NCBI GenBank assembly: GCA_030615035.1
Contig: JAUXAC010000046.1
Location: forward strand, 1 to 5,119
Direction: 5' to 3'
DNA: 5,119 nt
From: Dehalococcoidia bacterium
GTDB taxonomy: Bacteria > Chloroflexota > Dehalococcoidia > Dehalococcoidales > RBG-16-60-22
Shown: piece by piece, positions 789 to 5,119 of the stretch
Layout: each line of letters opens with the position of its first letter
Position numbering within the stretch: the first letter of the stretch is position 1
Made by a program: the position numbers and the translations under genes
The notes under the pieces: model-generated
What the model was told of the DNA's origin: nothing
What the model saw: only the letters and a program-made list of their open reading frames with translations
Database searches by the model: none

Positions 789-914
789 AAACAATATCAA
801 ATGACTAAAATTCAAAAGGACTAAGCAGTTTTGAAATTTGAAAATTAGGATTTGTTTAGGATTTCGTATTTAGATATTAGGATTTAATCTTTATGATTTG
901 GAGCGAAGCGACTT
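711..914. repeat. AT-rich intergenic repeat, copy B
   Basis: This is the second copy of the element at 286-446, in the same orientation and offset by about 470 bases. The core 786-914 matches copy A closely, including the identical 41 bases at 855-895. The right end (GATTTGGAGCGAAGCGACTTTA) runs into the TAA stop of the PilM-PilN gene at 914-916 on the opposite strand, so the repeat boundary and the gene end coincide. I find no coding frame in it. Confidence 0.8.
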
Positions 915-2335
915 TAGGGTTCAAGCTTAATAGTGCCGCCGGTGATATAAGAGAATTTCTCAGAGGGAGGAGTAACCGTAGAAAACCGGCCACTTTTCTC
1001 TAGAGCGGTTATATAGTCTCTAAAGACGATATAGCTCTCAGGCTCTGTCTGGCAGGTCATGGTGATACTCTCGCCTTCGTGGACAACAGACTCCACCTGG
1101 ACACCGAGTCGGTCAGCTTCACTTTTAATAACCGTCAGGTCTTCGGTAAAGCCGCCGCCCATATTCACAATGGTATTATATTCACCAATAGCCTGGTGCA
1201 GTGGTTCCCGGTTTTTAATTTCAAGCTGCTTCAGTTGCAGCTCATCGCTGAGAATGTTATATCTTCTTTCCAGGTCAGCAGTCTTATCCATAGCCCCCGA
1301 GGTTAGCTGATATAGAGGGAATAGCAGGGCGATGGCGGCTATTAAAGCACAGGCAAAGTATATCTGCCTGGCTGAAGGCTTCCATGCTTCATAGGTTTCG
1401 GGCAGGAGATTGATATCGGGGGGCAAATAGCCATCCTGCTCCAGACTTTTAGCTGGCACTGTCCCCTTCAGGGCAAGCCCGATATTGACGGCATACTGGG
1501 AGACAGGCATGTGTTCCGGACACTCTAACCGCGGTGACAGTGATTCAACGGGGTAGCCCACCCTGGCTTGCAGCTTCTCCATCAGGTCGAGGTCTCCGGA
1601 CACCTGCCCGGTGATAAGGAAGGGAGTAGCCGGGTCGAGAGGAGTATCGGAATGATGCGAATTATAGAAGCCCACTGTCAGCTCCAGATTCATTGCCAAG
1701 CGCTCCACCCTGTCTTCCCCGGTAAGACTATCCTGCTGCCAGGCTATGGTGCGCATAACCTCAGGTATGCCATTGACCACTATAATGATATCAAAGCTGG
1801 AGGGCTCGATATTGAGGATAAGAGCCTGCTCCTTATTCACCGCCCTGGCTAGCGCTATAGTCTTGAGGTCCAGGGTACGGGGATTGATGCCCGCCGCCCT
1901 CAAGGCTTGCATCTCAGCATCTATCACATCTCGGGGCACACCCACAATAAGAACTTGCTGGGCCTCCCCACCGGCAGTGATAGTCTGCCATGAGAGATAC
2001 AGCTCATCCATTGATAGGGGCATTATATCCCTTGCCGCCTCTAGAACTGCCTCCTGGGTGGTTATTCCCCCCCCCAGCGGGTTGGATACCGCCACGACAC
2101 GGCTTACCGAATAAAGACCACTGATACTGACAATGACATCCTTCGCCCTTATACCACTTGAGTCTATAAGCTGCTTGACCGCAGTGCTCAAAGCCCCGGG
2201 GTCTGAAATCACTCCCTCTTCAAACATGCCCGGTTCAAGAGAGAGGCTTGCCCATTTCACTACCCTTCCCTCTCTGGTTTCCATGAGCCTGATGGCAGTG
2301 GTATCTATTTCAAGGGTTACGATTCTCTTAGCCAA
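914..2335 (-). CDS. PilM-PilN fusion: type IV pilus inner-membrane platform protein (473 aa)
   Basis: Residues 1-291 read as PilM, the actin-like cytoplasmic component: N-terminal VTLEIDTTAIRLME (phosphate-1 position), NIEPSSFDIIIVVNGIPEVMRTI (phosphate-2 position, here split by description only), FLITGQVSGDLDLMEKL (adenosine position) and YAVNIGLALKG. Residues 308-312 are INLLP, the PilN motif that docks into PilM. A membrane helix follows at about 324-344, a coiled coil at about 350-378, and a ferredoxin-like periplasmic domain at about 398-473, as in PilN. Separate PilM is about 350 residues and PilN about 180-200, so both parts are compact. The classical DxG and GGG nucleotide-binding residues are not conserved (EID, NIE, TGQ), so ATP binding is doubtful. 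The start is TTG at 2335, chosen because AGGAG lies nine bases upstream; no in-frame ATG competes nearby. It follows the pilO-like gene by 37 bases. A G9 run encodes Gly88-90. Confidence 0.88.
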   Translation of the reverse strand: MAKRIVTLEIDTTAIRLMETREGRVVKWASLSLEPGMFEEGVISDPGALSTAVKQLIDSSGIRAKDVIVSISGLYSVSRVVAVSNPLGGGITTQEAVLEAARDIMPLSMDELYLSWQTITAGGEAQQVLIVGVPRDVIDAEMQALRAAGINPRTLDLKTIALARAVNKEQALILNIEPSSFDIIIVVNGIPEVMRTIAWQQDSLTGEDRVERLAMNLELTVGFYNSHHSDTPLDPATPFLITGQVSGDLDLMEKLQARVGYPVESLSPRLECPEHMPVSQYAVNIGLALKGTVPAKSLEQDGYLPPDINLLPETYEAWKPSARQIYFACALIAAIALLFPLYQLTSGAMDKTADLERRYNILSDELQLKQLEIKNREPLHQAIGEYNTIVNMGGGFTEDLTVIKSEADRLGVQVESVVHEGESITMTCQTEPESYIVFRDYITALEKSGRFSTVTPPSEKFSYITGGTIKLEP

Positions 2336-2344
2336 GGTTGCTTT

Positions 2345-2349
2345 CTCCT
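2345..2349 (-). promoter_or_regulatory. Shine-Dalgarno that selects the TTG start of the PilM-PilN gene
   Basis: On the minus strand AGGAG (within AGAGGAGAAAG) lies nine bases before TTG at 2335-2333. The nearby ATG at 2363-2361 is out of frame with the protein, so the TTG is the best-supported start. Confidence 0.7.
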
Positions 2350-2372
2350 CTGACTACTGGCATCAAATGCAA

Positions 2373-2951
2373 TCATCCCCCCGGTTTAGTATAAAGGTCA
2401 ACATCCAGGGTGGCAACGGTCTCAGTCGTGGTCACCCCTTCACCTTCGCCCTTAACTTCAATCTGTCTAATATCTACCCTTTTCAGCACCATGGTCTCCT
2501 GTGTTTCACCCGAATCAAGGTCGGAGATGAAAGCCATGACATTGCTATAATCACCCTGCACACTGATATTCTTGAAGGAAAAAACCTGATATGTGCCTCC
2601 CCCCACCTTCTCTTCTTTGACCGTTGCTGAGGAAACAACGAGCTTACCGCTATCAGTATCAATTCCGCTCTTCTCAGCTATGCCAACGAGTAATTCAATG
2701 GCATCACTATCTGTCATTGGAGTGAGAGCACTGTTGACCTTATCATATTCTTCCTGTAACTCTTCCTTGCTGGGTAATGGCTGAGCGACTATGCGGCTTA
2801 TTTTGGCGGATTGCTCCTCAAGTTCTCTTTGCTCTGAGCCCTGCTGCCAATAGACAAAGCCAAAGGCAATGTAGATAATAAGGAAAAAACCGATTAAAAC
2901 TAGAACTCCCGACTGGCGAAATCTGATGAGCAGGTTCTTTATAACTTCCAT
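2373..2951 (-). CDS. pilO: PilO-like type IV pilus alignment protein (192 aa)
   Basis: PilO pairs with PilN through membrane-proximal coiled coils and ferredoxin-like domains to form the inner-membrane platform of the pilus. Here a short cytoplasmic start (MEVIKNLLIRFRQSG) is followed by one membrane helix at about 15-34, a charged coiled-coil stretch at about 37-75 (containing PLPSKEELQEEYDKV), and an alpha/beta domain at about 81-187. That domain carries the recognisable VQGDYSNVMAFISDLDSG segment and the closing strand ATLDVDLYT. The length of 192 is close to the family norm of about 200. The ATG at 2951 is preceded by a purine-rich GAAGGGGGGCTGAAG, a weak but usable ribosome site. It sits just upstream of the PilM-PilN fusion, so the order is pilO then pilMN rather than the usual pilM-N-O. 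Similarity is structural more than sequence-level, so a GspM-like pseudopilus platform protein is the main alternative. Confidence 0.8.
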   Translation of the reverse strand: MEVIKNLLIRFRQSGVLVLIGFFLIIYIAFGFVYWQQGSEQRELEEQSAKISRIVAQPLPSKEELQEEYDKVNSALTPMTDSDAIELLVGIAEKSGIDTDSGKLVVSSATVKEEKVGGGTYQVFSFKNISVQGDYSNVMAFISDLDSGETQETMVLKRVDIRQIEVKGEGEGVTTTETVATLDVDLYTKPGG

Positions 2952-3002: not shown

Positions 3003-3138
3003 CCTAAACTAATCCCCTTTGGTCATTGCGGTGAGCCAAAGCCCAGAGCAAAGCGAAGGGAAAGCGAAGCAATCTCGCTATCTTCCCTACGGGATTGCTT
3101 CGTCGCTGACACTCCTCGCAATGACCAAAACGTTTAGG
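3003..3138. repeat. Long palindromic interspersed repeat inside the pilus gene cluster
   Basis: Nested inverted repeats define this element. CCTAAAC (3003-3009) pairs with GTTTAGG (3132-3138). TTTGGTCATTGC (3018-3029) pairs perfectly over 12 bp with GCAATGACCAAA (3118-3129). CGAAGCAATC (3065-3074) pairs over 10 bp with GATTGCTTCG (3093-3102). It shares GATTGCTT and CCTCGCAATGAC with 636-667. The flanks carry the same CTAAA/TTTAGGATTTAAT words as the AT-rich repeats. It has no coding capacity and resembles a non-autonomous palindromic (MITE- or REP-like) element. It fills most of the 202-bp gap between the 128-aa gene and pilO and could separate their expression, but no T tract marks it as an intrinsic terminator. 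Confidence 0.82.
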
Positions 3139-3153
3139 ATTTAATCCCTCTGG

Positions 3154-3540
3154 CTATTTCCACCTTTCACGCAGTGCCTTCTGAACCTTCTCCTCTATTG
3201 TTTCCTCTACCGCTTCCTTAACCGTCTCTTTTATTTTTAACTTTTGCTCCTGCTCCAGTTTTGATAGCTCTTCATCGTAGAAGCGCTCGTATAGTTGCCC
3301 CCCCCGTCTCCACCCCACCAGCCAGACCATAGCTAAGCCAAAGATGGCAATGGGTGCCACAACCTCAAGTCCCGCTTTGGTATATGTAGCTAAGATTATG
3401 ATAAGAATCAAAATGGCGAACAAGAGTATGAGAACATTAAGGTCCCACCTTGCATTTCTGGCTCTGTCCCTTGCTTTCCGGGCAGCCGTTCGTTCCATTT
3501 CCAGGCTAATCCCTACGATAACTTCAGTTTCGTCGGTCAT
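3154..3540 (-). CDS. Two-helix membrane protein with charged C-terminal helix (128 aa), unknown
   Basis: I do not recognise this as a named family. The N-terminus is short and polar, with a basic helix at about 17-31 (RTAARKARDRARNAR). It is followed by two hydrophobic segments at about 34-52 (LNVLILLFAILILIIILA) and 58-77, and a highly charged helical tail at about 83-127 rich in Glu and Lys that looks like a coiled coil. Two closely spaced helices predict an inner-membrane hairpin with both ends in the cytoplasm. The ATG at 3540 has a strong AGGAG five bases upstream. It lies 47 bases after the PilX-like gene on the same strand, so cotranscription with the minor pilins is plausible, and a palindromic repeat separates it from pilO. 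A G8 run encodes the Arg79-Gly80-Gly81 segment just after the second helix. A pilus role is suggested only by position; it could be an unrelated insertion into the locus. Confidence 0.75.
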   Translation of the reverse strand: MTDETEVIVGISLEMERTAARKARDRARNARWDLNVLILLFAILILIIILATYTKAGLEVVAPIAIFGLAMVWLVGWRRGGQLYERFYDEELSKLEQEQKLKIKETVKEAVEETIEEKVQKALRERWK

Positions 3541-3587: not shown

Positions 3588-4715
3588 CTACTTATAGATG
3601 TAGCTGATAGTTGACAGTTCACCACCAGGCAGGTCCTGGCGACCCGTAAGCTCTGCGGCATAGGTAATTGCGGCATTGATTACGTCAACCGTATTACCAC
3701 CCACAGCCCCGTACAAGTGGGTATTTCCTGTTACCAGAACGTTACCATTAGGGGCATAGACCACAGCGTTTATTATATTCTTTGTGCACAGAATATCGCC
3801 GCCGGTAGAGATAACAACCGGGATGCGGTCGGAAACATACTCGCCTCCCTCAATGGTTATACTCTGCTCGGCAAGTATGTTCTCCTCACCCTCGAGGTAT
3901 GTACCTGGTTTCACTGCAATTATACCAGTAACATAAACAGTGCCCGTAAGTTCTACGAAGCTGTTTGGCGCAATCGTTAGGTTCCCCTCGATATACGCCG
4001 GTCCGAACTCTATGGGGTCTTCAAGGGTTCCACCATCAAGCGTCACATCCTCATTATAGATATCACCTTCCTGCGCCATCGTCTTATATAACTCGGAATA
4101 ATCCCCGGGGAACTGTATCGGCGGGCTGGGACACGTAACCATCCCGGTAACCTTGTCCTGCCCGGAAATCGTGCCAACGGCAGAGGCATCGCCGTCTACC
4201 AGCACATTAGAACCGACTAGGTCAATATCCCCGTTAGAATGGATATTAGCTCCACCTGGCTCGTCGGCGTCAACCGTGGCATTTTCAATTGTCATGCTCT
4301 CCTTAGCGGCAACAACGAAGGCGAAGGAACCGGCGCTCAGGTTGACATAGGCCTCAATGGTCGTGCTGCCACAACCGCCGCCGCTGGCGGTGGAGGTTAT
4401 CTTATAGGTGCCGCCAGTCTCATAACGAGCAGTAACATTTACCGTTCTGCCGTTGAGGTCAAAACTCGCTATTAAATAATCTTCTTCCGTATATTCCGTA
4501 TATCCGCCTGGGTTGTTATATAACTCGGTCAAGGCATATTGCATGCCAGCATCGGCAGAATAACTAGTCAACGTCCTACACTCGATTGATTGGTGATACC
4601 CCAGGTTGGTAAACGACTGGTTCAGCATCGGGACCACCATCAAGCTACCCACCGCCAGCAGGATTAAAGCCATTACCACGGTTTGTCCAGATTCCCTGCT
4701 CTTCAGCAATTTCAT
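3588..4715 (-). CDS. PilX-like pseudopilin with repetitive beta-rich C-terminal region (375 aa)
   Basis: The N-terminus has a short basic leader ending in Gly10 (KLLKSRESG) and a hydrophobic helix at about 11-31 (QTVVMALILLAVGSLMVVPM). This is the PilX-type arrangement, and the classical Glu at mature position 5 is absent. The YSADAGMQYALTEL segment at 52-65 is the 'ADAG' signature seen after the helix in PilX-like proteins. Residues from about 130 onward are short beta-strand repeats (HSNGDIDLVGSNVLVDGDAS, AYIEGNLTIAPNSFVELTG, VVYAPNGNVLVTGNTHLYG) resembling a stacked polymer or bactofilin-like solenoid. Cysteines fall at 46, 115, 195 and 310. It should be exported and anchored, or added to a pilus tip as a minor pilin. 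The ATG at 4715 follows GAGAGGG by nine bases, only 17 bases after the PilW-like stop, so the two are very likely cotranscribed. It is much longer than ordinary PilX (about 170-200), because of the solenoid. Confidence 0.8.
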   Translation of the reverse strand: MKLLKSRESGQTVVMALILLAVGSLMVVPMLNQSFTNLGYHQSIECRTLTSYSADAGMQYALTELYNNPGGYTEYTEEDYLIASFDLNGRTVNVTARYETGGTYKITSTASGGGCGSTTIEAYVNLSAGSFAFVVAAKESMTIENATVDADEPGGANIHSNGDIDLVGSNVLVDGDASAVGTISGQDKVTGMVTCPSPPIQFPGDYSELYKTMAQEGDIYNEDVTLDGGTLEDPIEFGPAYIEGNLTIAPNSFVELTGTVYVTGIIAVKPGTYLEGEENILAEQSITIEGGEYVSDRIPVVISTGGDILCTKNIINAVVYAPNGNVLVTGNTHLYGAVGGNTVDVINAAITYAAELTGRQDLPGGELSTISYIYK

Positions 4716-4732: not shown

Positions 4733-5119
4733 TCAGCTGCTTGGCCTGAGCCGCTGGCTAATTTCGTAACTTCTTGTTGCACCAGTTTCATCTCTGGAAG
4801 CCCTTACGGTGAGCTTATAGAGACCGGCGTCGGCGTCCAGGACACTAAATGTGGTATTGCCAGTATCAATGTACTCGGCAATAAAAGTCTCCGAAGTCCC
4901 AAAGGAGTCATGCTTCTGACGCTTTAGCTTATCGCCATCAAACACATAATCAATGGTATAATCATTCTCCGGGTTATTATCCATTGGGATGTCAAGCCTT
5001 AGAAAAACACCAGGCTCACCAAGGGTCACAATTCTTGCCATCTGAACATCACGCGAAATCCAATAGCCGGCATTCTGCACTTGAGGCAGGGCCGTATTCT
5101 GCCCAGCAGCTTGCCCCTC
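4733..5119 (-). CDS. PilW-like minor pilin, C-terminal part (start outside window)
   Basis: The frame is open to the right edge of the window. The internal GTG at 5080 is not the start, because coding reads on through 13 further codons (EGQAAGQNTALPQ) to position 5119. The visible 128 residues begin after the pilin helix. The QVQNAGYWISRDVQMARIV segment is the typical post-helix region of PilW/PilJ-type minor pilins. It is followed by a beta-rich globular part with YTIDYVFDGDKLKRQ, then YKLTVRASRDETGATRSYEIS and the polar end QRLRPSS. Minor pilins of this type are processed by prepilin peptidase and help start filament assembly. The TGA stop overlaps the ribosome site of the next gene, which is 17 bases away, showing an operon with the PilX-like gene. 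Which minor pilin subclass it belongs to (PilW versus GspJ-like) cannot be settled without the N-terminus. Confidence 0.82.
   Translation of the reverse strand, partial: EGQAAGQNTALPQVQNAGYWISRDVQMARIVTLGEPGVFLRLDIPMDNNPENDYTIDYVFDGDKLKRQKHDSFGTSETFIAEYIDTGNTTFSVLDADAGLYKLTVRASRDETGATRSYEISQRLRPSS

Follow-up and report, generated by a model that had tools for sequence, protein, structure and literature searches.

A natural PilM-PilN fusion with a diderm-type docking motif at its joint in Dehalococcoidia

Results

A fused gene and its layout

We analysed a 5,119-nucleotide stretch of DNA from a Dehalococcoidia bacterium (contig JAUXAC010000046.1; "the window" denotes this whole stretch), which carries on its minus strand a single gene joining the pilus proteins PilM and PilN. 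The parts of the gene, and the element ahead of it, are as follows.

914..2335, minus: gene for the PilM-PilN fusion, 473 aa, from a TTG start to a TAA stop (open reading frame list and homologues)
2345..2351, minus: AGAGGAG, ribosome-binding-like, ahead of the TTG start (position counted by hand)
1457..2335, minus: actin-like domain of PilM, residues 1-293, with a short subdomain 2B site
1415..1456, minus: linker (residues 294-307), which varies across the family and has gaps in part (alignment)
1400..1414, minus: PilN docking motif INLLP, residues 308-312 (alignment of 123 rows)
1301..1369, minus: membrane helix, residues about 323-345 (hydropathy; model helix from 322)
1154..1300, minus: coiled coil, residues about 346-394 (long helices in the predicted structure)
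917..1153, minus: extracytoplasmic ferredoxin-like domain, residues 395-473

The frame runs for 473 codons without a stop, which at the local base composition would arise by chance with a probability of about 2e-10, and 9 bases separate AGAGGAG from the TTG. Hydropathy is maximal in 19-residue segments starting at residues 321-328. A first-pass annotation, made from the letters alone, had read a single 473-residue frame holding a PilM-like domain, INLLP at 308-312, a membrane helix at about 324-344, a coiled coil and a ferredoxin-like domain. This layout is borne out, and sequence and hydropathy agree on the motif and the helix. The gene is a natural PilM-PilN fusion with a diderm-type docking motif at the joint.

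Homologues and spread

Protein searches were run with the window protein (543 homologues, best 120 used), with a Dehalogenimonas relative (109 homologues) and with a relative from a 1.36-Mb contig (315 homologues, best 120 used). Pooled, they gave 308 distinct proteins among the matches listed, and 301 of these have the fused length of 440-545 aa, which answers the survey for the fusion that the first-pass annotation had called for. The fused homologues include proteins named Dehalococcoides mccartyi, among them the top match listed of the 315-homologue search, and Dehalogenimonas; both genera are cultured. A frameshift or assembly error merging two genes could be suspected, given that relatives have adjacent pilM and pilN in differing frames. 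This explanation fails because homologues across genomes share the fused length and the motif; we consider it ruled out, with a probability close to nil.

In the class of genome G001, which carries a locus 83 percent identical (L002, titled Dehalococcoidia), the family profile matched 143 of 393 genomes; phylum-wide, 50 of 400 genomes matched. Length classes were assigned from 150 rows among the matches listed, retyped by hand. Long rows, reaching at least position 380 of the 488 in the profile, number at least 95 in 82 genomes (a few with an incomplete start), and short rows, ending at 270-315, at least 53 in 50 genomes; two rows fit neither class. Fused and standalone kinds occur together in at least seven genomes. 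Two or three fused PilM-PilN matches per genome were also seen in G300, G655, G713, G729 and others. Since some genomes hold several fused PilM, or a fused and a standalone one, they may contain more than one pilus-like system. Judged by sequence, the fusion is widespread in Dehalococcoidia and kin.

Identity of the PilM and PilN parts

The N-terminal part matches PilM by several routes. The window protein matches PF11104 at E 1.3e-13 (51.1 bits against a 27-bit cut-off) and Thermus PilM (2ych) at E 2.8e-12; it matches the PilM model TIGR01175 at E 5.5e-19, but the 68 bits lie below the 133-bit cut-off. PilM_2 is found in 53 of 53 family members (here and below, family matches are counted at E up to 0.1). 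The Amuc_1101 family of PilM-like pilus proteins (NF045709) is alike in that its model matches 50 of the 53; it differs in that this model has 608 positions and requires 650 bits, of which the window protein scores 35. In the structure search, the predicted actin-like fold is nearest to solved PilM. Unlike a soluble, separate PilM, the domain continues in frame into a membrane helix.

The obvious competitor is GspL of type II secretion, whose layout is identical and whose model (TIGR01709) matches 11 of the 53 family members, the best at 1.5e-6; GspL_C also matches two of the 31 PilO-like neighbours described below. In addition, the fold of the outer domain is at least as near GspL as PilO or GspM (tied). 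For the window protein itself, TIGR01709 gives E 0.04 and 13 bits against a 65-bit cut-off, compared with 5.5e-19 for PilM, and the fold match to GspL is far lower than that to PilM. A GspL identity of residues 1-293 is ruled out on these values, and that the gene as a whole is a true GspL is highly improbable. The PilM-like reading of residues 1-291 in the first-pass annotation, which had named GspL as the comparison to make, stands: by sequence and predicted fold, residues 1-293 are PilM.

The C-terminal part is PilN by family profile. Searched singly, the window sequence gave no match to PF05137 (PilN), and the structure search with the outer domain brought up no PilN chain among the matches listed. 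The profile of 123 family rows matches Myxococcus xanthus PilN at E 2.1e-5 over profile positions 300-458, and PF05137 is found in 36 of the 53 family members. The order of parts is also that of PilN: a docking motif (INLLP, 308-312), then a single membrane helix from about 323, and a ferredoxin-like outer domain.

Conservation of the docking motif

Across the alignment of 123 homologue rows, P312 is invariant (123/123), Y315 occurs in 120, L311 is leucine in 103, and N309 is Asn in 111 rows and Asp in the other 12. The most frequent forms of the motif are INLLP (41) and FNALP (27). In the first search, strict INL[LI]P is present in 102 of the 120 matches listed out of 543, with near variants by eye in 17 (MNLLP, VNLLP, INFLP, INLVP and others); the remaining one is a 331-aa piece. 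Among the 109 relatives of the Dehalogenimonas copy, 96 fit a looser pattern, and the 13 misses are three shorter proteins and ten variants, including LNALP before another spacing, FNATP, FDATP and FNAAP. Linker columns 292-306, on the other hand, are variable, and two of them are gapped in 74 of the 123 rows.

Since the motif is near-invariant while the linker drifts, selection still acts on the dock. It could be argued that the covalent link makes recruitment needless and that INLLP is a left-over replaced by the tether. The constancy of P312 and N309 next to a variable, partly gapped linker speaks against this, and we assign such a vestigial role very little probability. The joint thus seems to have a role of its own beyond bringing PilM and PilN together.

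How the motif docks was approached with predicted structures. In the predicted monomer, the confidence of the motif is much higher with the PilM domain present than without it. Model residues 3-313 align in the structure search with residues 10-366 of the 5eou chain, which points more weakly in the same direction. Docking in cis, the intramolecular contact that the first-pass annotation had raised as a possibility, is feasible in the predicted monomer. Alternatively, the motif may dock in the PilM domain of the next subunit, chaining neighbours into a domain-swapped ring. In 102 of the 123 rows, columns 291 and 308 are separated by 14 to 16 residues, which might reach a neighbour, and motif conservation is compatible with either mode; the gain in motif confidence within a monomer suggests that no neighbour is needed, and we hold the swapped ring to be unlikely.

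A short 2B site and missing glycines

In the model, helix 206-227 comes straight after strand 190-198; at this point M. xanthus PilM carries about 40 extra residues between its two aligned stretches. Columns 199-212 hold 13-14 residues in 44 fused rows, and the insert absent there is one that, from the actin fold, we take to be subdomain 2B, so that the window protein lacks this feature of PilM. The 40 standalone Chloroflexota PilM relatives are equally short at this site (11-14 residues). The short 2B site therefore predates the fusion, and the fusion as cause of its loss is ruled out.

Three glycines carried by solved PilMs, which we take to be those of the nucleotide motifs, are nearly absent from the fused family: Gly is found at positions 11, 177 and 244 in 0, 1 and 2 of 123 rows, respectively, while G243 is retained in all 123. 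The window protein accordingly departs in sequence from PilM at its nucleotide motifs. Standalone rows also have no Gly at 11 or at 177 (0/40 each), and a displaced Gly is present at position 12 in 28 of 40 and at position 176 in 13 of 40, against 1 of 44 and 0 of 44 fused rows. In the distant standalone rows L094-L100, Gly is found at 11 in four of seven and at 177 in four of seven. By these alignments, the fused line has lost more glycines than its standalone relatives.

Fused and split states

In seven standalone loci of the tree, pilN lies directly downstream of pilM in a different frame with its own start codon, overlapping the pilM stop (L078, L082) or beginning at most about 30 bases after it (L011, L012, L064, L065, L103). 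L072, whose pilN is degenerate, was filed as downstream by decision. In 14 further standalone loci pilN lies upstream of pilM, and in the remaining ones the retrieved stretch, often a short one, showed no pilN. Downstream of the standalone PilM of L064, an open frame (L064:2394-4241, about 615 codons) starts with a PilN-like stretch, in which a clear N-x-L-P motif was not seen. Read from translations, a prepilin peptidase-like gene follows standalone PilM in L015, L023, L029 and L033, and an ScpB-like gene in L028 and L032.

A single clade of fused forms is rejected by the approximately unbiased (AU) test (p 0.00029; 42 fused rows against 39), in a set from which ten rows had been removed because their branches or their stem were long: L112 and L113, both fused, the standalone rows L094-L100, and L072. 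Built from the full set of 91 rows, the quick tree requires five changes, and its starred branches force three. The four fused rows of the window clade have the split pair L078/L082 as their sister (100/96), and fused L092 pairs as sister with split L064, which comes from the same genome (100/99). Another 36 fused rows make up a clade of their own (100/100). On these sequences, the fused or split state has changed at least three times.

Gain and loss are not separable on a tree without a sure root, and there may have been one fusion followed by several splits. With a midpoint root, the tree points to a single fusion at the base of a clade with 43 rows (86/80), together with one split in L078/L082 and one L092-L064 change. 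PilM of split L078 and L082 ends 23 and 12 residues beyond the domain, compared with 1-3 in five other split loci. The suggestion of the first-pass annotation that the line keeps or has re-evolved a GspL-like state holds in part. Layout and short actin-like domain are like GspL, although standalone Chloroflexota PilM is equally short; a retained ancestral state finds no support, as the fusion sits among unfused pilM-pilN relatives and the state has changed repeatedly.

Neighbouring genes and other features of the window

2373..2951, minus: PilO-like gene, 192 aa, 37 bases upstream of the fusion (31-gene profile)

Taken alone, this gene gave no Pfam match. A profile of 31 PilO-like genes (that of the window and 30 upstream neighbours) matches M. 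xanthus PilO at E 1.5e-4; singly, Pfam PilO is found in 2 of the 31, as is GspL_C. At L084, the locus around the closest named relative among the matches listed, the order is a pilB-type ATPase with MshEN, a platform protein, two pilin-like genes, a DUF7305 gene, a small membrane protein, the PilO-like gene and the fusion. The window has the last four of these genes and, by position, part of the preceding one (4733-5119, no Pfam match). Its DUF7305 protein (3588-4715) and small membrane coiled-coil protein (3154-3540) lie upstream of the PilO-like gene in the order of L084.

Elsewhere in the window, the A+T-rich intergenic stretches 288-439 and 761-906 are repeats of one another, matching over 78 nt with 82 percent identity and over 77 nt with 96 percent identity. 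They flank a 69-aa open reading frame (426-635) with weak zinc-ribbon-like matches, and the first copy overlaps its start. Intergenic 3019-3127, with ends ggtcattgcg and cgcaatgacc, looks by eye like a dispersed palindromic element that the repeat search did not list. Rfam gave no match at gathering scores.

Discussion

We propose that, in Dehalococcoidia and kin, this gene specifies a stator subunit with permanently tethered PilM and PilN, part of a type IVa-like pilus machine. The motif would dock within its own chain, in the PilM groove, which is the mode we favour, or in the groove of a neighbour. This would give one PilM per PilN, with PilM as a fixed cytoplasmic ring below the PilN-PilO cage. 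As the motif has been retained although the tether already joins the parts, the dock would most likely be a load-bearing joint that orients PilM to the PilB motor, and not a mere recruitment handle. PilM here would probably act without ATP as a switch, since the nucleotide-motif glycines are gone. The protein would work like GspL by convergence, being by descent PilM plus PilN. Two observations lower our confidence slightly in this proposal and in the stronger version below, and raise it for docking in trans: unrelated actin-family rows in the structure search also extend into the motif region, and the standalone relatives retain displaced glycines. Taken globally, we consider the explanation probable.

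A stronger version is tentative, and we would not count on it. There, nucleotide use and exchange are lost and PilM is welded to PilN; the motif, as a purely mechanical joint, transmits the force of the motor to the cage of PilN and PilO; and a convergent GspL has arisen and broken up repeatedly.

The fusion resembles type IVa PilM and PilN of Thermus, Myxococcus and Pseudomonas in PilM fold, PilN sequence and the adjoining PilO-like gene, and model PilN likewise carries an N-terminal docking motif ahead of its membrane helix. It differs in being one chain, in its short 2B site, in lacking the usual glycines and in the PilO-like gene preceding it. GspL similarly holds an actin-like and a ferredoxin-like outer domain in one protein, and its cytoplasmic chains in solved structures are short, at 224-238 residues, like the actin-like domain of the fusion; the fusion nevertheless matches it poorly in sequence and, in fold, far less well than it matches PilM. 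The engineered PilM:PilN1-12 (5eou) also places a PilN peptide behind PilM, but is a laboratory construct with 12 PilN residues and bound ATP.

A fusion of this kind is already in print. Passages of PMC6916266, which cites Melville and Craig 2013, report a PilM-PilN fusion in a pilus locus of Clostridioides difficile, and state that the monoderm contact might use a different, C-terminal PilN motif. The Chloroflexota fusion, compared with this one (known here from review text), keeps the diderm-type motif. In the literature searched, mostly outside subscription journals and without supplements, and including passages of PMC12488501, PMC6916266, PMC6668835, PMC4471445, PMC11656802, PMC6145873 and PMC13319060, we did not find a PilM-PilN fusion in Chloroflexota described, nor its wide spread with a diderm-type motif, short 2B site, missing glycines and recurrent switching between the fused and the split state. 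In Litorilinea aerophila, pilM is given as absent in passages of PMC13319060.

The fusion bears on what the contact between PilM and PilN is for. In a model pilus, PilN binding reportedly changes the structure and the partners of PilM (the work of McCallum, 2016). A fusion that has kept the dock but lost the glycines would distinguish between two roles of this contact, that of control point and that of load-bearing joint, and the close relatives in fused and split form are natural pairs for comparing them.
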